Shown: in pieces, positions 6,361-30,587 of the stretch | Layout: the number at the start of each line of letters is the position of its first letter | Numbering within the stretch: position 1 is the stretch's first letter | From: an uncultured Actinomycetes bacterium | Lineage (GTDB): Bacteria; Actinomycetota; Actinomycetes; Nanopelagicales; Nanopelagicaceae | Length of the DNA stretch: 64,000 nt | NCBI GenBank assembly: GCA_903825945.1 | Contig: CAIKCJ010000026.1 | Coordinates: 1 to 64,000 of the forward strand | Direction: 5' to 3' | Notes under the pieces: model-generated | Databases searched by the model: none | Told to the model about the DNA's origin: nothing | Seen by the model: only the letters and a program-made list of their open reading frames with translations | Translations under genes and position numbers: made by a program

Positions 6361-9225
6361 TTGTCAGCCAAGCGATCAGTAATCCGCGAATCCTTTGTCG
6401 ATCGCCATATTGGTCCTGATGAAAGTTCGATCGAGCTGATGCTCTCGACTTTAGGGGAGTCTTCACTTGAATCACTGATTGCTCGCGTGGTGCCCGCAAA
6501 TATTGCCATGGGCGAAAAGCTCGAGAGTGCGCTACCTGAAGGAATTTCAGAAGTTGCTGCGATCAAGCGTTTGCGAGAACTTGCAGATCAGAACAAGGTA
6601 ATGCGTTCCTACATTGGTACTGGTTATTACGGAACCATCATGCCTCCGGTAGTACTTCGAAACATTCTGGAAAATCCTGCCTGGTACACCGCCTACACGC
6701 CGTATCAACCAGAAATTAGTCAGGGCCGCCTTGAGGCAATTTTCGCTTTCCAAACTGTGGTGAGTGATCTGACCGGATTGCCAATTGCCAATGCATCAAT
6801 GCTCGACGAGGCAACAAGTGCAGCGGAAGCCATGACACTCGCGCGCCGCAACTGGAGTGGTAGTGATGATGCCGCATTCTTCATTGACCAAAATCTTCAT
6901 CCACACATAAAGGCTGTCATTGCAACACGAGCAAAGCCACTTAAGATCACTCTCATAGAAGCCTCTATTCATGATCTCGACATGGTTGCTGTACCGCTTT
7001 TCGGTGGAATTGTCTCTCAATTTTCAACATACGGAGAAGTGGTCAACGTAGAGAAGTTTGTTACTGAGATTCATGCACGAGGTGCGCTGGCTATTGTTGC
7101 AACAGATTTATTAGCGCTTGCACTTTACACGTCGCCAGGGGAGAGCGGCGCAGATGTCGCAATTGGCTCCGCACAAAGATTTGGCGTGCCGATGGGTTTT
7201 GGTGGTCCGCATGCTGGGTTCATGTCAGTTCGTGCTGGTCTTGAACGTTCGATCCCAGGACGACTTGTTGGGCAGAGCATCGATAGCCATGGAAATAGCG
7301 CATACAGATTGGCGCTTCAAACTCGCGAGCAACATATTCGTCGTGACAAAGCAACATCAAATATTTGTACAGCGCAAGTTCTACTCGCGGTCCTCTCTGC
7401 TTTCTATGCGATGTGGCATGGCGCCGACGGCATTAAGGCGATCGCAACACGCGTTCGCGAGAGTACTCATCTCTTGCGTAAGAGTTTGTCATCTCATGGA
7501 CTGAAGGTCAGTTCATTTGATGTCTTCGACACATTTGTAGTCAACGATGTCGATGCAGAAGCAATAGCAGTGCAGGCTCGAGATCGTGGAATAAATTTGC
7601 GAATAATTTCAGCCCAGGCTCTTGGTATCTCACTGGATGAAACGGTAACGCTGCATGACCTAGAAGAATTAGCGCAGCTCTTTGGAGCAAAGTTGCAGGG
7701 GGATGGTGCATTGCCCCTTAGTGCACCACGCTCTACTGATTATTTACAGCACAAAGTCTTTAACTCGTATCATTCTGAGACGTCAATGTTGCGTTACATC
7801 CGCACGCTGTCAGATCGAGACTTGGCACTTGATCGTACGATGATCCCGCTTGGCTCTTGCACAATGAAACTCAATGCAACTACCGAGATGATTCCGATTA
7901 CCTGGCCAGAGTTTGCCTCTCTCCATCCATTTGCACCGGCGGATCAATCTGCCGGATTTAGAACACTCATCAACGAACTTTCGGATTGGCTTATCGAAAT
8001 CACTGGCTACGACGCTGTATCACTCCAGCCTAACGCTGGTTCGCAAGGAGAATTTGCAGGGCTTCTGGCTATTCGTAACTATTTGGACGTCAATGGGGGG
8101 AGTGAGAGGGATATCTGCCTCATTCCATCGAGTGCACACGGAACCAACGCAGCTAGCGCTGTCATGGCCGGTATGAAAGTGGTAGTTGTTGCGTGCGACG
8201 AATTTGGTAACGTCTCAGTCGATGACATCAAAGCGAAAATTGAGGAATACAGCGGACGCTTGGCAGCTCTGATGGTGACGTATCCATCAACTCATGGCGT
8301 CTTTGAATCTGCGATCTCCGAAATTTGTGCACTGGTCCATGATGCAGGGGGACAGGTATACGTTGACGGTGCGAATCTCAACGCATTGGTTGGCCTTGCT
8401 CAACCTGGAAAATTTGGTGCAGATGTTTCTCATCTCAATCTTCACAAAACTTTCTGCATTCCGCACGGAGGTGGTGGGCCGGGAGTTGGTCCAGTAATTT
8501 CCAGAGCACACCTTGCGCCGTATCTACCAAATCACCCGCAGGATCCACTGTGTGGTCCAGCAACCGGCCCTGGACCAGTGAGCTCTGCTCCATTTGGTTC
8601 AGCTGGAATCTTGCCAATCTCGTGGGCATATATTCGCATGATGGGCGGTTCTGGTCTGACGAAGGCAACTCAAGTTGCGATCTTGTCCGCTAATTACATA
8701 GCGACAAAATTGGATCCACATTTCCCAATTCTCTATAAGGGCGAAGGTGGATTTATCGCCCATGAATGTATTGTCGACTTACGTGAGATCACCAAGAAAT
8801 CTGGCGTGACTGTCGATGACGTTGCCAAGCGTCTGATGGATTATGGTTTCCATGCACCGACTGTCAGCTTTCCAGTTGCGGGAACTATGATGATTGAACC
8901 GACCGAATCGGAAGATATCGATGAGTTGGACCGGTTTATCAATGCCATGATTTCAATCCGAGCCGAGATTTCGGCGATCGAAGCGGGAGAGATGGCGGTC
9001 GAAGAATCAGCACTGCGAATGGCTCCGCATACCGATGTCGACTTATTGAGTGATCTCTGGGATCGTAAATATTCACGTCAAAGCGCTGCTTACCCAACTG
9101 GAGTTGATTCAAGTATGGGCCATAAGGGCAAATACTGGCCAAGTGTTGGTCGTATCGATGGGGTATTTGGGGATCGGAATTTGGTCTGCGCCTGTGCGCC
9201 GATCGAGGAGTTGGCGATCAACTAG
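6361..9225 (+). CDS. gcvP: Glycine dehydrogenase (decarboxylating), P protein
   Basis: PLP-dependent decarboxylase that loads the aminomethyl group of glycine on lipoylated GcvH. Full-length single-chain type, 954 residues, with two homologous halves. The PLP-binding lysine is in [17 protein letters not shown], at about residue 696. The start is TTG, preceded closely by AGGGGGAG at 6351-6358; the next conserved residues ([10 protein letters not shown]) follow at once, so no later start is needed. It ends the plus-strand block and converges with the Ppm1-like gene. No glycine riboswitch fits in the 36-base upstream gap. Confidence 0.96.
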
Positions 9226-9254
9226 CCCGATTCTTTTACTTTACATAATGTAGA

Positions 9255-10010
9255 TTATCGGCGATTAAGTATGCGCTTGAAACCCCACTGAGTGGTCTTT
9301 AGCCATGCCTCGAAAACAATTCCTATGTTCATCTTGGATTGGCCATCAACCCGTTCGGTAAATTCAATAGGTACTTGTGCAATAGGCATCCGAAGCTGTG
9401 CGGCTAAAGCAACAACTTCGATCTGAAATCCGTATCCAGAAGCTTGCATGTCAGATTGGAGAATCTCTTTGACGAGCTTCATGCTCAAGACCCTAAATCC
9501 ACTTGTGAGGTCTTTGTAAGGCAATTTCAGGGCCGCTGATGCGTACCAGGTGCCAAATCTCGAGATCAGGCGCCTGGCCAATGGCCAATTGTGGACTGAG
9601 CCGCCAGGCATCCAGCGAGTGCCAATAACAAGGTCGTGGCCTGCCTTGGCAGCCGCCAAAAGATCTCCCAATTGGGCCGGGTGATGGCTGCCATCTGCAT
9701 CCATTTCTACGACAAATTCATATTGATTAAATGATTGATTATGTTGATTATTGTGATCATTTTTGCGAGAGCTGGCCCAAGAAAACCCAGCCAGATACGC
9801 AGGGCCCAAACCAGCTTTCTGACTTCGGTGGAGAACATGAATTTTCTCGGATTTCAGGGATTCTGCAATTTCTCCGGTTCCATCCGGGGAGTTGTCATCG
9901 ACAATCAAAATGTCGATATCGCCATGCAATTCGGTGAGTTCTATTACAAGCCTCTTTAAGTTTGCACGTTCATTGAACGTTGGCAAAATTACAAGAGTGT
10001 CATTTACCAT
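9255..10010 (-). CDS. Polyprenol-phosphate mannosyltransferase (Ppm1/DPM1-like GT2)
   Basis: Family 2 glycosyltransferase that likely moves mannose from GDP-mannose to a polyprenyl phosphate for lipoglycan or protein mannosylation. Motifs are PTFNERANL, DDNSPDGT and the metal-binding DADGSH; it ends in FTERVDGQSKM-type acceptor motifs. It has no C-terminal membrane segments and no fused Lnt domain (251 residues), as in DPM1. Residues 84-96 form an Asn/Gln/His-rich insert encoded by AT-rich DNA. It overlaps the upstream exonuclease gene by 7 bases. Another GT2 donor specificity cannot be excluded. Confidence 0.85.
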   Translation of the reverse strand: MVNDTLVILPTFNERANLKRLVIELTELHGDIDILIVDDNSPDGTGEIAESLKSEKIHVLHRSQKAGLGPAYLAGFSWASSRKNDHNNQHNQSFNQYEFVVEMDADGSHHPAQLGDLLAAAKAGHDLVIGTRWMPGGSVHNWPLARRLISRFGTWYASAALKLPYKDLTSGFRVLSMKLVKEILQSDMQASGYGFQIEVVALAAQLRMPIAQVPIEFTERVDGQSKMNIGIVFEAWLKTTQWGFKRILNRR

Positions 10011-10903
10011 CCGAGCGCCGAAATCATGCGATCGATCGAAGCTCCTAAATTGAATTCATTCTTATATCGGTAAATTTCTTCGAGCGTTGCCGGCGCTTGA
10101 GGCATATCAAATTTCATCGGTGGAATCGGAACATCTAAGGCGCAGTGCACGATTGTTGGAGCGATGGAAATATATTCACTTGATTCAATCAGTTTCTTAC
10201 GCAAGTTCGGTGTAAGTCTTTCATCATTAGCATGTGCTGCATCAAGTGCTTCTTCAATATTGCTGAAGTTGTTTGCAATCAGAGCCGCACCTTTTTCGCC
10301 TATTCCTTTAACGCCTGGAAGACCATCGGATGCATCGCCTCGGATCAGGGCAAATAGTGCGTACCTATCCCCCGGGATTTCGTACTTTCGAGCTATCCAA
10401 TTAATATCGACAAGATCGTGATTGGCCAAACCTTTTGCTAGGTAGACAACTTTCACGCGACGTTTATCATTTACTAACTGGAACAAATCACGATCTCCGG
10501 TAGCAATGAAAGTAGGACCACGTTCGCGCACACTTACTGTCGCAATAACATCATCTGCCTCGTAATTGTCAACACCTACATTCGGAATTGAAAATGCATC
10601 GAGGATATCTAGCAATATTGGTATCTGTGGTGTCAAAGTATCTGGCTCTGCCTCTTCGCCATCGTCATCGACGCGATTAGCTTTGTAACCAGGGAATAGA
10701 TCAGTGCGCCATGTTGGGCGCCAATCCCCCTCAGTTGCGCAGAGAATTCGCGATGGTTGGTATTGCGAAATTAGCCGGGCGGACATATCGAGAAAACCTT
10801 TGATGGCGTTAACTGGTGAACCATCAGGTGCGACAAGTGAGTCTGGCATTCCGTAGTAAGCCCGATACCAGAGAGATGCACTGTCGAGAAGGAGAAGTGT
10901 CAT
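10004..10903 (-). CDS. 5'-3' exonuclease, PolI-like N-terminal nuclease (Rv2090 type)
   Basis: Stand-alone FEN-like nuclease of 299 residues, homologous to the 5' nuclease domain of DNA polymerase I. The acidic metal-ligand motifs are LLDSASLWYRAYYG, YEADDVIAT and ATGDRDLF, and the helix-3-turn-helix is GDASDGLPGVKGIGEKGA. Likely removes flaps or RNA primers in replication and repair. It overlaps helY by 4 bases (ATGA), the same neighbour as in M. tuberculosis. A true DNA polymerase I is not in the window. Confidence 0.88.
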   Translation of the reverse strand: MTLLLLDSASLWYRAYYGMPDSLVAPDGSPVNAIKGFLDMSARLISQYQPSRILCATEGDWRPTWRTDLFPGYKANRVDDDGEEAEPDTLTPQIPILLDILDAFSIPNVGVDNYEADDVIATVSVRERGPTFIATGDRDLFQLVNDKRRVKVVYLAKGLANHDLVDINWIARKYEIPGDRYALFALIRGDASDGLPGVKGIGEKGAALIANNFSNIEEALDAAHANDERLTPNLRKKLIESSEYISIAPTIVHCALDVPIPPMKFDMPQAPATLEEIYRYKNEFNLGASIDRMISALGW

Positions 10904-13299
10904 GCAACTATTCCAGCGTAGGAAACAATTCCACGGTCAATCCGCTTGAGTGCATTATCAACTGTCTGCGACAGATGAGGTGATGCGTTACCTATTTGTC
11001 GCAGGAGATCAATGATCTGCTTCATCGCACGCACAAAATCCCCAACCGTGAGTTCTGTTCCGCGAAGGATTGCAGCCAATGAATGACCACTCGCCCATCG
11101 ATAAGAAGCCCAGCAGAATGCAAGATCAGGTTCACGCATTGGCTCTAATCCGATATCAACTTCTGAACGCTGGATATCTGCCCAGCAGGTAACGAGATCG
11201 TTAAGTACTTCTTCGACCTCACCCCTAGGAATCTTAGGAGATTCATCACGCCTTGCTTCGAAAACAAGTGCCGAAAGAACTGAGACCATCTCTGGACCAT
11301 CCAAGGTATCAAAGCTGCCGGCTTTAATCATCTGCGCGATAAGTAAGTCAGTTTCTCCATAAATATTTGCAAGCAAAGTTCCCCACTGGGTGATGACCCC
11401 ATTTTTGAGGTAACCATATTTTTCGAGCATAACTTGGACAAGATCAAATCTCTTAGCTATCAAATCAGTTCGACTGCTCACGCGATCTTCAAGTCCACGT
11501 GTCTCGCGGGCAAGTCGATCAAGACGTTCGGCTATGCGTGAATGTTCCTCGCGCTCTGAACAACCATGACACGGATGTGCGCGTAGAGCACGCCTAGCAG
11601 CAACTAGCTCATCCTCGGCAATTACCCGCTTGGCTTTAGTCATCTTGGCCAGCGCTTTTTCTATAGCTTTTATCTCAGAACGGATAGCGGCATACTCCAC
11701 AAAATCACCTTGATGGCAGGCCATCTCGCCCATGAGTTCCGCACTGGCAGATTGATTACGTTTAATCTGTCTAGCAAGGCCAACGACCGCTTTGTCGGCT
11801 TGATACTGTGCGAATGATGACTCAAGAGAAGTTCGCGCACGTTCGGCGCCAAAACGCGAGATCAGATTGATTGTCATGTTGTATGTTGGCTTGAAACTGC
11901 TCTTGAGCGGGTATGCGCGAGTGGAAGCAAGACCTGCTACCGATCCAGAATCTACCTCTTTGCTCCAGAGAATGACGGCATTTCCCTCGATATCAATTCC
12001 ACGACGGCCGGCTCTCCCAGTGAGCTGAGTGAACTCTCCCGGACTTATCGAAACATGTGACTCGCCATTCCACTTCATCAACTTTTCGAGAACAACCGTG
12101 CGAGCGGGCATATTGATGCCCATGGCCAGCGTCTCTGTGGCAAAGACGCATTTAACGAGACCGCGTTGGAATAACTCCTCGACAGTTTCTTTAAATGAAG
12201 GCAATAGGCCAGCGTGGTGCGCAGCTATTCCACGTTCTAGACCATCGAGCCATTCTGAGAATCCGAGGACAACCAAATCTTCTTCAGGAATATTCGCGGT
12301 CGCGCGAAAGACGACTTCTCGAATTTCTGATCGTTCTTGGGCATTGGTTAAACGGATACCCGCCTTTACGCATTGGTGAACTGCAGCAGAACAAGCGTTA
12401 CGGGAGAATATAAATGTTATTGCAGGCAGTAGACCTTCACGATCTAAACGTTCGATAACTTCGGCTCGATTTAGCGCACGCGAGGTAGGAGTGAGTTGGC
12501 TCTTATCCTGCCAATTACCGCCCCTCCCCTTCTTGGAATCGTAAGATCCGCGAACCTTGCGCAACGAGTCCTTTTCAAGTCTGACAATTTCAGGATTAAC
12601 TTTGCCTTCATCTACGAAGAGATCAAGAAGCTGATGTCCAAAGAGAACATGTTGGTAGAGCGGAACTGGGCGTGTTTCCGAGACAATTACATCGGTATTT
12701 CCGCGCACTGCACCTAGCCAATCACCAAACTCTTCCGCATTTGAGACAGTGGCTGAGAGTGAGGCGACCTGAATTGATTCAGGTAAGTGAATGAGAATTT
12801 CTTCCCAGACTGCTCCCCTAAATTTGTCTGCTAGATAGTGGACTTCATCCATCACCACATACTGGAGATTGCGAAGCGTGTGGCTTTCGGCATAGATCAT
12901 GTTTCGCAAAACTTCGGTCGTCATAACGACGATCTGCGCCTCGGAATTGACGCTGGTGTCACCAGTGAGGAGGCCTACCTTCTCCTCACCAAACATCTCT
13001 TTAAAATCAGAGAATTTCTGATTCGATAACGCCTTGATCGGTGCCGTATAGAAGCATTTTTTGCCAGTGGCTATTGCCAAGAAAGCGGCAAACTCGCCAA
13101 CAATTGTCTTTCCTGCGCCGGTTGGAGCTGCGACAAGGACCCCGTGTCCATCCTCAAGGGAATGGCATCCTTCGATTTGGAATGGATCTAGTGGGAAATC
13201 GAATGTGTCGCAAAATTCTCTCGTGCGTTTATATTTATTCGCCGATTTTGCGGCAGCAAAGCGTTCCGCAGGTGAACGATCATCGCTCATGTCGTTCAT
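10900..13299 (-). CDS. helY: DEVH-box RNA helicase HelY (Ski2/Mtr4-like)
   Basis: Superfamily 2 helicase with a Ski2-like core. Motifs: AAPTGAGKT (Walker A), MDEVHYL (DEVH), SLSATVSN, and LTGRAGRRGID (motif VI), then a helical C-terminal region with CHGCSEREEH. An earlier in-frame start at 13365 would overlap tatC. The ATG at 13299 is preceded by AAAGGA with good spacing and gives 799 residues, so it is chosen. It lies in the pafB-pafC-tatA-tatC-helY operon order conserved in actinobacteria. Probably works in RNA turnover; the substrate is unknown. Confidence 0.9.
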   Translation of the reverse strand: MNDMSDDRSPAERFAAAKSANKYKRTREFCDTFDFPLDPFQIEGCHSLEDGHGVLVAAPTGAGKTIVGEFAAFLAIATGKKCFYTAPIKALSNQKFSDFKEMFGEEKVGLLTGDTSVNSEAQIVVMTTEVLRNMIYAESHTLRNLQYVVMDEVHYLADKFRGAVWEEILIHLPESIQVASLSATVSNAEEFGDWLGAVRGNTDVIVSETRPVPLYQHVLFGHQLLDLFVDEGKVNPEIVRLEKDSLRKVRGSYDSKKGRGGNWQDKSQLTPTSRALNRAEVIERLDREGLLPAITFIFSRNACSAAVHQCVKAGIRLTNAQERSEIREVVFRATANIPEEDLVVLGFSEWLDGLERGIAAHHAGLLPSFKETVEELFQRGLVKCVFATETLAMGINMPARTVVLEKLMKWNGESHVSISPGEFTQLTGRAGRRGIDIEGNAVILWSKEVDSGSVAGLASTRAYPLKSSFKPTYNMTINLISRFGAERARTSLESSFAQYQADKAVVGLARQIKRNQSASAELMGEMACHQGDFVEYAAIRSEIKAIEKALAKMTKAKRVIAEDELVAARRALRAHPCHGCSEREEHSRIAERLDRLARETRGLEDRVSSRTDLIAKRFDLVQVMLEKYGYLKNGVITQWGTLLANIYGETDLLIAQMIKAGSFDTLDGPEMVSVLSALVFEARRDESPKIPRGEVEEVLNDLVTCWADIQRSEVDIGLEPMREPDLAFCWASYRWASGHSLAAILRGTELTVGDFVRAMKQIIDLLRQIGNASPHLSQTVDNALKRIDRGIVSYAGIVA

Positions 13300-22650: not shown

Positions 22651-23346
22651 CTAGTAAGGCGGGAATGGAACCGAAGGCCATTGATCTGATGGCTCTGGAA
22701 ATATTCCATACTCTAGAAGCGAGGCAATTCTTTGATCTAGCGCCGCCAGCTCCTTTGCTGTTAAAAGTTCGGCGACAACGGCCGTAGATCGAGAAGCTTG
22801 TCGCAGTATCTCGATCTCTGTTTGCGCCAGAGGCTGTCCGCTCCAATTCCATAGAACGGTTCTTAATTTGTCATCGCTATGAAAACAGACTCCGTGGTCG
22901 CAGCCATAAATTTCACCATGTGGATCAATCAAAATATGACCGAATTTACGGTCGGTGTTATTGATGATGGCATCAAAGAGCGCCATCTTGCGTAGTGCAT
23001 CAGGTGAGTCGGCAACATAGGCGAGGAGGTCTAAGTCCTCATCGACTTCTATCCACTGTTGGACTGATCCAATTCCAAATGGTCCATCACGCAAAATCGT
23101 GAATGGGACTAGTCCAAGTCCGATTTCCTGCGACAACTTGTATGCCGCAACTTCTCGAGAGGCTAAATTGCCATCGGGGAAATCCCACAGGGGTCGCTCA
23201 CCGGCGATGGGTTTATAAATGACAGGAACCTTTTCATCCCCAAGAACTGCATGAGCGAACAGCGTTGCATTTGATGCATCCACAAATCGACCCTCGACTA
23301 CCAGGTCTCCTTCTTCGATAATTTCTTGCTCGTTCGACGTACTCAT
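22651..23346 (-). CDS. SCO1664-family protein with PI3/PI4-kinase-like fold
   Basis: Uncharacterised actinobacterial family. 231 residues with apparent kinase residues: VIYKP (Lys45, nucleotide-binding type), NNTDRKFGH (catalytic loop, Asp132), and CDHG (Asp150, metal-binding, DFG-like). This matches the phosphoinositide-kinase/HipA-like arrangement, so phosphorylation of a protein, lipid or small molecule is likely but the substrate is unknown. Its ATG directly abuts the DUF3090 stop codon, and mshC follows downstream. Confidence 0.82.
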   Translation of the reverse strand: MSTSNEQEIIEEGDLVVEGRFVDASNATLFAHAVLGDEKVPVIYKPIAGERPLWDFPDGNLASREVAAYKLSQEIGLGLVPFTILRDGPFGIGSVQQWIEVDEDLDLLAYVADSPDALRKMALFDAIINNTDRKFGHILIDPHGEIYGCDHGVCFHSDDKLRTVLWNWSGQPLAQTEIEILRQASRSTAVVAELLTAKELAALDQRIASLLEYGIFPEPSDQWPSVPFPPY

Positions 23347-23910
23347 TTAACGACGATATCCGTTTGCTCTTGGACAGAGATGTCCTTGCGGATCGATTGG
23401 AAGACCACAAAATGGGCACTGGATACGGCCTGCAGAGACGATGGCGTTGGCCAATTCGCAAAATCCGCGTGCTTGATTGATGCGAAGTGAAATCGAGAGT
23501 AAATCAGGAGCATCTTCTAAGAAAGTAGCTTCGTCATCGTCGAGCAGTTCTACAAGCGACTCATCGCCTATCGACTGTGCCTCAATGAGTATTCGCTGCT
23601 CATCTTGAATCCAACTGATTCCTATAACACCGACGCGAAAATCCTCTTCGATCGGAAATGTCAGCGTCGACGAGCTTTTCTGTGGTGGCAAGCCCAGCTC
23701 ATCGAGTGAGGCTAAATGGTTGCGACGCAACTCCTTGATCATCTCTTGAATTCGCAAGACCAGGGCCATCACTTGAGACTTCTCAACGCTCACGCAATTT
23801 TCGCCATGATCAGACTTTACTTGTAGGAAAAATGTTCGTTCTCCAGGAACTCCCACTGTGCCAACAATGAACTGTGAGACGTTGTTGTGCCTATAAACAA
23901 TTCTGCTCAT
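23347..23910 (-). CDS. DUF3090 family protein with C-terminal zinc ribbon
   Basis: Conserved actinobacterial protein of unknown function, 187 residues. Starts with RIVYRHNNVSQFIVGTVG and ends with a likely zinc site (CPFCGLP, then LCP) followed by RANGYRR. It overlaps the phosphatase gene by 4 bases and abuts the kinase-like gene, so the three are translated together. Confidence 0.85.
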   Translation of the reverse strand: MSRIVYRHNNVSQFIVGTVGVPGERTFFLQVKSDHGENCVSVEKSQVMALVLRIQEMIKELRRNHLASLDELGLPPQKSSSTLTFPIEEDFRVGVIGISWIQDEQRILIEAQSIGDESLVELLDDDEATFLEDAPDLLSISLRINQARGFCELANAIVSAGRIQCPFCGLPIDPQGHLCPRANGYRR

Positions 23911-24608
23911 ACTCGACCAGCCCCTCCGCCAAGTGAATGGATATCACGTTGATTGCTCTTAGGAGATTTAGCAGATTTAGGAGATTTAGGAGATTCTGAG
24001 TGTCTCTGCAAGTGCTCAACGTTATTGAGAGAAATGAGGTGAGATGGAGAGTACGAGATGGTTGTCAACGAGGCAGGATCGATTGCAATTCTCTGAAAGT
24101 TATCTAGTGGCAAACCCAGGTGGTAGGCAACGATCGACTTGATCACATCTCCGTGAGAAACAACTAAAATTCTCGACTTCCCCTTGGCCATCTCAAGCAC
24201 GGCTTGGTTTGCGCGCAGCGACATTTCGGCAAAACTTTCACCAGACGGAAAACGTACGGTGCTAGGTCTACTTTGAATATCTGCCCATAGAGGCATTTTG
24301 GAGAGCTTAGAGAGTGGCTTGCCTGACCATGTCCCATAATCCATTTCCAGGATCTCTTTGGATGCCACGGGGCGTGCACCTGTGGTTTTGAGAAGAGGCG
24401 CAATTGTTTGCTTGCAACGCTTGAGATCGGATACATAAATAGCATCAAATTTTCCTTGAGCTAGTACCTGAGCCACTTGCTGAGCCTCGGCCTCACCTCG
24501 AGGCGAAAGTCCTACTGTGTTATCTCGACCTGCCAGAACTCCTTTTAGATTGGCTGTTGAGTGGGCGTGACGTAGCAAAACAATCTCGCACTTCTTCGGG
24601 GTGGCCAT
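23907..24608 (-). CDS. Histidine phosphatase, MSMEG_4193 family
   Basis: Phosphoglycerate-mutase-like phosphatase. The catalytic histidine motif is LLRHAHSTAN, the second histidine is in VVSHGDVIKS, and the acid residue is in the ILEMDYGTW region. 233 residues, the last ~25 being a low-complexity, basic SPK/SAK repeat tail. First gene of the trio with DUF3090 and the kinase-like protein. A -10-like box lies 6 bases before the ATG. Substrate unknown; phosphomutase activity is also possible. Confidence 0.85.
   Translation of the reverse strand: MATPKKCEIVLLRHAHSTANLKGVLAGRDNTVGLSPRGEAEAQQVAQVLAQGKFDAIYVSDLKRCKQTIAPLLKTTGARPVASKEILEMDYGTWSGKPLSKLSKMPLWADIQSRPSTVRFPSGESFAEMSLRANQAVLEMAKGKSRILVVSHGDVIKSIVAYHLGLPLDNFQRIAIDPASLTTISYSPSHLISLNNVEHLQRHSESPKSPKSAKSPKSNQRDIHSLGGGAGRV
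23961..23996 (-). repeat. 9-base tandem repeat, four copies, in the phosphatase tail
   Basis: Plus-strand unit AGGAGATTT with single-base variants, four consecutive copies, in frame and encoding Ser-Pro-Lys / Ser-Ala-Lys. Confidence 0.88.
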
Positions 24609-29019: not shown

Positions 29020-29727
29020 AACTATCGGGGCAAAGAAGAGAGCAGGCAGTAGATCGCCAATGGCTATCTGCTTGAGCCCAAGTAGTCGAAGCGCAATGCC
29101 AAATAGCAGAATCCCCCCAACGGCTGTGAGCGCCTGGATTTGATACTGCGCAAGGATGCTTCCTAAAAAGTAGCCAATGATGGTCCAAGCAAATTGGTAA
29201 ATCCCAACAGGGATAGCAGAAAATGCCACTCCCCATCCAAATGACGACGCAAAAGCCATTGCAGCGAAACCATCGAGGGTGCTCTTTAGAACGAGTTGCG
29301 AGATACCTGTGTGCATGCCATCGCTGACGCTTCCCAAGATTGCCAAGGGTCCAATCGCGAAAAGTAGTGCGGCGGCCATAAAGCCTTCAATAAAGTTACC
29401 TTTGTCGCGTGCAGCAAATCGTAACTTCAGTTGTTGGCCAAATGCTTCAAGGCGTGGCTCTAGGCGCAAAAAGTAGCCAACGAGTGCCCCGAGTAGGAGC
29501 GCCGCAAGAGTTCCAAGCGTTGTCCAGCCGACAGGTACCGCATGAGTAAAGAGCGGATTCCAGACACTCCGAAGAGCATCCGCTGCATTAATAAGACAGA
29601 CGCAGCCTAAAATATCTGTAATCAGCCCGCGCAGGCGATCGGGCAACCTACCGCCAGATAGAACTCCAATCGCTGAACCAACAACGATTGTCACTATGTT
29701 GATGCATGTGCCTAAGCCAATAAACAT
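28993..29727 (-). CDS. DUF554 membrane protein (YdfK/YqgA type)
   Basis: Integral membrane protein of unknown function, 244 residues, with about seven hydrophobic helices and family segments GTCINIVTIVVGSAIG and LGALVGYFLRLE. Its ATG shares one base with the uppP stop (TAATG), so it is translationally coupled. Confidence 0.85.
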   Translation of the reverse strand: MFIGLGTCINIVTIVVGSAIGVLSGGRLPDRLRGLITDILGCVCLINAADALRSVWNPLFTHAVPVGWTTLGTLAALLLGALVGYFLRLEPRLEAFGQQLKLRFAARDKGNFIEGFMAAALLFAIGPLAILGSVSDGMHTGISQLVLKSTLDGFAAMAFASSFGWGVAFSAIPVGIYQFAWTIIGYFLGSILAQYQIQALTAVGGILLFGIALRLLGLKQIAIGDLLPALFFAPIVALVAHQFM

Positions 29728-30587
29728 TATCCGAGGAAGCCGAATTTAATTATCGAAAGCAAACCAAATGCTAGGCAGTACAAAGCGAATGGTTTGAGTG
29801 TGCGGGTCTTAAACCATTTGACCAGAATGGTCGCACTGATCATCGTTGCAAAAAACGAGACAATGGTTCCAATAGCAAGAGGTCCATAGGAGCCGCTGAT
29901 AGAGCCATGAAAAAGTTTAGGAAGTTTGAAAATCGAGGCACCGAGTATTACGGGGAAAGAGAGAAGGAAGGCGAAATCTGCAGCTACGCTGCGAGATAAC
30001 CCACGAAGCATTCCAAACGACACGGTCACTCCAAATCGGCTGATCCCAGCAAATAGCGCGGCACTTTGTCCCACTCCAATGGCTAGCGCCTGACCTGGTG
30101 AAACTCGAGATGCAATCGCCTCGTCCTCGCTTAGGCCTTCAACATGAGAATGTCTGCGTGCCGTGAGCTTCTCTGTCCCGAACAAGATGAATCCGTTGAT
30201 AGTAAGAAAAATGGCAGCCGCCAAAGGCTTTTCAAAATTCTTTTGGAAAAAATTATTAAATAGAAGACCAATAATGGCTACTGGCAAAGTTCCCAAAAGG
30301 AGAAGCAGAAAAATACGGAAACCAATCTCGTCCTTTTTCCACAAAAGAGCGGAGCGCAGGATCGCTATCCATCTAGGTGCGAAGACGATAAAGAGTGCCG
30401 CAGCACTGGCTAGGTGTAACGCAATTGCCACCAAGAGATATTGGGGCGTCTGCGAATAAGCACGCCAGCTCCCGCCTAACCAGGCTGGAATCAGGACGCT
30501 ATGGCCCAGACTTGAGACCGGAAATAGCTCAGTGATGCCCTGAATGAGTCCTGAAACGATTGCTTGAAGGTAGGTGAAATGAAACAT
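29727..30587 (-). CDS. uppP: Undecaprenyl-diphosphate phosphatase
   Basis: Recycles the lipid carrier of peptidoglycan synthesis (BacA family; confers bacitracin tolerance). 286 residues, multi-pass membrane. Motifs QGITELFPVSSLGH and GISRFGVTVSFGMLRG are the two catalytic signatures. TAATG overlap with the ABC gene upstream and DUF554 downstream. In other actinobacteria uppP sits next to the MSMEG_4193 phosphatase; here it is 5 kb away. Confidence 0.94.
   Translation of the reverse strand: MFHFTYLQAIVSGLIQGITELFPVSSLGHSVLIPAWLGGSWRAYSQTPQYLLVAIALHLASAAALFIVFAPRWIAILRSALLWKKDEIGFRIFLLLLLGTLPVAIIGLLFNNFFQKNFEKPLAAAIFLTINGFILFGTEKLTARRHSHVEGLSEDEAIASRVSPGQALAIGVGQSAALFAGISRFGVTVSFGMLRGLSRSVAADFAFLLSFPVILGASIFKLPKLFHGSISGSYGPLAIGTIVSFFATMISATILVKWFKTRTLKPFALYCLAFGLLSIIKFGFLG

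Follow-up and report, generated by a model that had tools for sequence, protein, structure and literature searches.

The three genes studied here belong to the SCO1664, DUF3090 and MSMEG_4193 families, and these families, as well as their adjacency to mshC, are already on record. We take the trio of Mycobacterium tuberculosis to be Rv2133c-Rv2135c, with Rv2135c as the ortholog of the histidine phosphatase, and SCO1664 homologs presumably also occur in Chloroflexota. Rv2135c has acid phosphatase activity on pNPP, acts weakly on fructose-6-P, glycerol-1-P and PEP, and is inactive on glucose-6-P, ADP and 3-phosphoglycerate; its Km is poor, about 8-14 mM (PMC3866925). In BCG, mutation of Rv2134c changed fitness when rifampicin was present below the MIC (value -1.42; PMC11329110), and insertions in MSMEG_4192 were over-represented following dibucaine (PMC10127668). 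Both effects are mild, and neither is decisive for the function. SCO1664 was stated to be invariably close to mshC (PMC4255298). To these records our analysis adds structural evidence on the kinase, a predicted Pur-like fold for DUF3090, an all-or-none distribution, and the strength and limits of the link with mycothiol.

Outside these families, the animal enzyme 2-phosphoxylose phosphatase (XYLP) is a member of the histidine phosphatase superfamily, and we know of no three-part switch of kinase, phosphatase and Pur-like zinc protein that has been described in bacteria. XYLP and the kinase FAM20B dephosphorylate and phosphorylate one and the same sugar (PMC12110425).

The window, a stretch of 64,000 nucleotides from an uncultured member of the Nanopelagicaceae, carries the trio on the minus strand (Table 1). 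The genes are transcribed in the order histidine phosphatase, DUF3090, SCO1664, mshC and metH. An earlier note on this DNA had described the first three as overlapping and then abutting, and the open reading frames bear this out: the phosphatase stop codon and the DUF3090 start share four bases, by which the two genes are likely to be translationally coupled, and the SCO1664 ATG directly adjoins the DUF3090 stop codon. Another 38 bases separate the SCO1664 gene from mshC, and 17 bases lie between mshC and metH. Equal production of kinase and phosphatase, which the earlier note had assumed, does not follow from the sequence. The host genome, a 1.26 Mb draft with Nanopelagicaceae-type actinobacteria as its relatives, also encodes a clear MshA (565.6 bits). 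The locus resembles the known families in sequence membership, gene order and adjacency, and differs in belonging to a small Nanopelagicales-type genome without Pup and in having a phosphatase and an MshC slightly below the family cut-offs. The window MshC, a paralog of CysRS, had 444 bits with TIGR03447 (cut-off 485) and 273 bits with cysS.

Table 1. Features of the trio locus in the window
Feature	Coordinates	Strand	Basis or remark
Histidine phosphatase (HP) gene	24608-23907	minus	branch 1 superfamily, MSMEG_4193-like
DUF3090 gene	23910-23347	minus	PF11290 and TIGR03847 scores
SCO1664-family minimal kinase gene	23346-22651	minus	TIGR03843, model, residue invariance
Four bases common to the HP and DUF3090 genes	23907-23910	minus	direct reading
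mshC (mycothiol cysteine ligase)	22612-21323	minus	TIGR03447 versus cysS scores
metH (methionine synthase)	21305-17817	minus	ORF; named from sequence and the annotated metH of Tsukamurella locus L158
uppP-like gene (undecaprenyl-diphosphate phosphatase)	29727-30587	same as the trio	named from sequence
Tandem repeat near the HP 3' end	23959-23995		9-base unit
HP residue 61	24426-24428		D61

The annotated Tsukamurella locus L158 has mshC followed by metH, in the same order as the window, and the two metH products are 62% identical across 396 residues. The adjacency of metH is a local one and carries little weight. A uppP-like gene lies 5 kb upstream of the trio in the window; an annotated uppP is also close to the trio in Tsukamurella, and in mycobacteria uppP is adjacent to the phosphatase gene (PMC3866925).

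The occurrence of the trio was examined in 149 Actinomycetota genomes. All three genes were present in 64 of them. SCO1664 and DUF3090 occurred in the same 64 genomes and were both missing in the other 85, and a histidine phosphatase was found in every trio genome (in G077 with a match at 7e-42). Of 148 SCO1664 loci, 136 had the three genes contiguous, the median gap being -4 bases at either junction, and several of the 12 non-contiguous loci were contig ends or start-codon calls with the partner found nearby. Nearly all Actinomycetes sampled kept the trio, as did other lineages of the phylum. The conservation in actinobacteria that the earlier note had claimed is thus borne out by these counts. 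This arrangement is far beyond chance: the trio is a co-translated, vertically kept actinobacterial module, and almost certainly a real functional one.

Partial sets are also found. Corynebacterium glutamicum has the phosphatase and the kinase and no DUF3090. In genome G199 (contig C16) the phosphatase, DUF3090 and mshC genes are consecutive, and the kinase gene is missing between the last two. In view of these two cases, the role of zinc adaptor that the earlier note gave to DUF3090 is a putative one. A second phosphatase-kinase pair without DUF3090 occurs in G008 (contig C17, positions 8949-10263 of locus L143), which has a full trio as well. An apparent kinase loss in G288 was dropped because its contig ends within the kinase gene. 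No fusion between two trio members was seen in the trio loci read. Searches of plasmids and phages gave only two records labeled as plasmids and one dubious phage record. The latter (MT835969.1, positions 8153-12791) is an unverified faecal entry named 'Bacteriophage sp.' with 72% GC and all three trio genes, and has the look of bacterial DNA deposited under a phage name.

The SCO1664 protein of the window scored 276.2 bits with TIGR03843, above the curated cut-off of 172.4. With the PI3_PI4_kinase family (PF00454) it reached 20.9 bits, under the gathering cut-off of 27.1, and with the Fam20C family (PF06702) 10.6 bits, below the cut-off of 26.8; 57 of 84 relatives matched PF00454 at an E value of 0.01 or better, the best at 9.7e-14. 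An AlphaFold model built from these 84 aligned relatives had a mean pLDDT of 94.5. The closest structures were type II PI 4-kinases (PI4K II-beta, Z 18.2, 217 residues, 3.7 A), followed by Fam20 (Z 14.2), CtkA (13.8) and HipA (11.1), and the profile search gave FAM20A at 9e-5 and PI4K2B at 2.5e-4. In the profile alignment, K45 corresponds to the lysine of PI4K2A 'AVFKPKNEE', E65 to the glutamate of 'EAGAYLV', and D132 falls within 'IRNTDRGNDN'. Residues K45, E65, D125, N130, D132, R133, K134, H137 and D150 were invariant in the 84 sequences, and D150 is followed by a nearly invariant H151-G152, forming a D-H-G motif. DHG is found as a variant of DFG in Caenorhabditis elegans FAM20 as well (PMC12110425).

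The earlier note had read K45, D132 and D150 as PI-kinase-like catalytic residues, a reading that this alignment supports, and had made its proposal depend on a predicted kinase fold, which the model does have. Both the fold and the catalytic Lys, Glu, Asp and Asp of the type II PI 4-kinase and Fam20 group are present in the model. Sequence and model together indicate that SCO1664 is very probably a small kinase within the type II PI 4-kinase/Fam20/HipA branch, with an active kinase fold. It shares with PI4K2A/B the fold across 217 residues, the KP...E pattern, E65 and an N-x-D-R catalytic loop. Unlike them, it is about half the size, shows 17-20% identity, stays under the PF00454 cut-off and has D-H-G where they have D-F-G, and a lipid would be a candidate substrate. 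The likeness of fold leaves the substrate unfixed, since the protein kinases Fam20C and HipA are in the same fold group. The HipA kinases are bacterial and share the kinase fold; the trio differs from their systems in having a phosphatase in place of a HipB-like DNA-binding partner and no toxin-antitoxin layout.

The histidine phosphatase of the window scored 153.6 bits with His_Phos_1 (PF00300), above the cut-off, and 190.8 bits with the MSMEG_4193 family (TIGR03848), just below its cut-off of 203.85. By sequence it is an outlying relative of that family, with the same gene order and context as the members. Residues R13, H14, R64, E88, H152 and D154 were kept in 142-143 of 143 sequences, and R13, H14, R64, E88 and H152 supply the RHx motif, second arginine, acidic residue and C-terminal histidine of branch 1. 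The predicted active site is intact, and the assignment as a histidine phosphatase in the earlier note stands. Position 61 is an aspartate in the window and a proline in 141 of 143 sequences, three residues ahead of the conserved R64. Close to its 3' end the gene contains 4.1 copies of a 9-base unit in tandem (TTAGGAGAT), which are translated into a tail of SPK repeats that nearly all relatives lack.

DUF3090 scored 149 bits with PF11290 (cut-off 27) and 163 bits with TIGR03847 (cut-off 117.25). The zinc site proposed for it in the earlier note agrees with the invariance of C165, C168, H177 and C179, which form a CxxC...HxC motif and a putative zinc site; this motif is already recorded as putative metal-binding (PMC9425974). 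In the model (pLDDT 87.3), residues from about 9 to 161 would form a two-repeat domain like that of Pur-alpha, followed by the zinc-ribbon-like motif. This domain was superposed on Pur-alpha repeats I-II with Z 9.5 (109 residues, rmsd 3.4 A); further matches were a DUF155 protein (6.6) and plant Whirly proteins (about 5.8). The zinc motif has no counterpart in Pur-alpha, and despite the fold match no sequence match of DUF3090 to solved Pur proteins was found. The predicted Pur-alpha-like fold was apparently unreported before, being absent from those parts of the DUF3090 literature that we could consult. Pur and Whirly proteins are nucleic-acid binders, and a common fold with them does not establish the function of DUF3090.

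This last point bears on one of the alternatives, that DUF3090 binds ssDNA or RNA through the Pur-like fold and recruits the kinase and the phosphatase to a target made of nucleic acid or nucleoprotein. The nucleic-acid-binding folds among its structural matches favor such a role. We consider it highly improbable, given the missing sequence similarity to Pur proteins, the weakness of fold as a guide to function, and C. glutamicum, which retains the phosphatase and kinase without DUF3090.

The earlier note had further taken the neighboring mshC and metH as a hint at thiol metabolism. Across the phylum, an MshA-like enzyme was present in 58 of the 64 trio genomes and in two of the 85 others (phi 0.89), and the phosphatase was present in 58 of the 60 genomes with an MshA-like enzyme. 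The trio and MshC do not strictly co-occur: 35 of the 64 trio genomes had no MshC-like match at 1e-100, and G199 and G349 have mshC without SCO1664. Outside the class Actinomycetes, the flanks of the trio vary by family and do not include mshC. The neighbors there (fumarase, enolase with Ppx/GppA, ProRS with an Era-like GTPase, an electron transfer flavoprotein, an acetyl-CoA-synthetase-like enzyme) do not point to a shared pathway. The MshC-like proteins of these lineages are intermediate in score between MshC and CysRS; of ten tested, eight had 411-446 bits with TIGR03447 versus 329-369 with cysS, and one scored higher as CysRS.

According to a review, Acidimicrobium is the one exception among non-actinomycete actinobacteria, which otherwise have no mycothiol pathway (PMC4255298). 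Most of the trio genomes without an MshC-level match have an MshA-like enzyme, and the review places the pathway in Acidimicrobium, so that these genomes may still have mycothiol. The objection that the earlier note had raised against its own proposal, a trio occurring free of mshC in lineages without mycothiol, therefore largely holds at the level of MshC and the flanks and not clearly for mycothiol. Much of the correlation is explained by shared descent, since the Pup system had the same phylum-wide pattern as the trio (phi 0.93). Inositol phosphate synthase (Ino1) was present in 61 of the 64 trio genomes, and its presence was rejected as an explanation of the trio (phi 0.47), 44 genomes having Ino1 without the trio.

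The test within the class used 66 Actinomycetes genomes, namely all those sampled without SCO1664 except G288 and a hand-picked spread with SCO1664. Of the genomes with the kinase, 50 had mshC and one did not; of those without it, two had mshC and 13 did not (phi 0.87). The corresponding numbers for Pup were 38 and 13 against four and 11 (phi 0.42). Within the class the trio thus tracks mshC better than Pup, in a comparison that contains few independent events, in which a single deletion can remove linked genes, and in which two genomes (G166 and G252) are drafts. The kinase, phosphatase and mshC are kept in each of the ten Nanopelagicaceae genomes checked, and none of these has Pup. In family f71, ten genomes are without the kinase, the phosphatase and mshC together; G297 keeps them, on different contigs. 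Genome G349, which is 100% complete, has mshC and neither the kinase nor, at 1e-40, the phosphatase, which shows that the trio is not needed for the retention of mshC. A partnership of the trio with the Pup proteasome, raised by the phylum-wide correlation, was weakened by the kinase and phosphatase occurring without Pup in the ten Nanopelagicaceae, G297 and G152, and by Pup occurring without the kinase in G166, G252, G199 and G349.

The trio was unlinked to mshC in G008, G165, G297, G333 and G350. Together with the genomes that have mshC without SCO1664, these cases make the published 'invariably linked' too strong. The mycothiol link is statistical and not strict, and the earlier hint at thiol metabolism is only partly supported: the presence of the trio follows an MshA-like enzyme in the phylum and mshC in the class, without strict pairing with MshC.

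The best overall explanation, which we advance tentatively and at less than an even chance, is that the kinase and the phosphatase form an opposed pair whose target is a hydroxyl of the inositol, sugar or polyol type, DUF3090 being an accessory. The kinase and the phosphatase would oppose each other on one hydroxyl group, most likely carried by a soluble or lipid-linked metabolite containing inositol, a sugar or a polyol, and this candidate metabolite may belong to the metabolic branch supplying mycothiol and phosphatidylinositol. DUF3090 would be an accessory or regulatory partner. The mode of action would resemble that of the sugar kinase FAM20B and XYLP, where a phosphatase counteracts a kinase of the same fold group at a sugar hydroxyl; those are secretory animal enzymes without an operon and without a DUF3090-like partner. 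Taken separately, opposed action of the kinase and phosphatase is slightly favored, and a target of the inositol or sugar type is possible and rather doubtful. The partial sets (G199 without the kinase, G349, C. glutamicum without DUF3090) speak against the pair, as do the poor Km of Rv2135c and its lack of activity on glucose-6-P. We think it improbable that the trio is an on/off switch setting the supply of thiol cofactor or inositol sugars, with a mycothiol/inositol intermediate or MshC as its target and the Pur-like zinc protein as its sensor.

The target might instead be a protein. HipA, a structural relative of SCO1664, phosphorylates a class I aminoacyl-tRNA synthetase, and MshC, the CysRS paralog, adjoins the trio in much of the class; a kinase of the HipA/Fam20C type could therefore modify MshC or another class I synthetase-like enzyme, with the phosphatase reversing the modification. 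The 35 genomes that carry the trio and have no match at MshC level are difficult to accommodate, as are the five with unlinked loci, and we regard a protein target as somewhat unlikely. Also unlikely is that the trio is an old, translationally coupled operon of genes with separate housekeeping roles and no phosphorylation cycle, the correlations with mycothiol and Pup reflecting shared descent in one clade. The equally strong correlation with the unrelated Pup system, the lineage-specific flanks, and the sets without the kinase or without DUF3090 speak for such an operon; the strict retention of all three genes over several classes, their conserved order and overlaps, and the complementary chemistries of kinase and phosphatase speak against it.

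The phosphatase could also be MshA2, the enzyme of mycothiol synthesis that yields GlcNAc-Ins from GlcNAc-Ins-P; the kinase would then be regulatory or play a part of its own. Rv2135c has phosphatase activity and as yet no assigned natural substrate (PMC3866925), the phosphatase accompanies nearly all MshA-like enzymes in our sample, and the MshA2 step is described without a gene name in the sections of the sources that we consulted (PMC4360819, PMC9736012). This assignment leaves the strict pairing with a kinase unexplained, inositol monophosphatase-type enzymes could perform the step, and G349 has mshC without the phosphatase, so that we consider it improbable.

For the preferred opposed pair, a predicted active kinase of the lipid or sugar type together with a phosphatase makes a specific search for the substrate possible. 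One candidate role of the trio touches the MshA2 step, to which no gene name was attached in the parts of the literature consulted, and the predicted Pur-like fold would be the first structural handle on the DUF3090 family.
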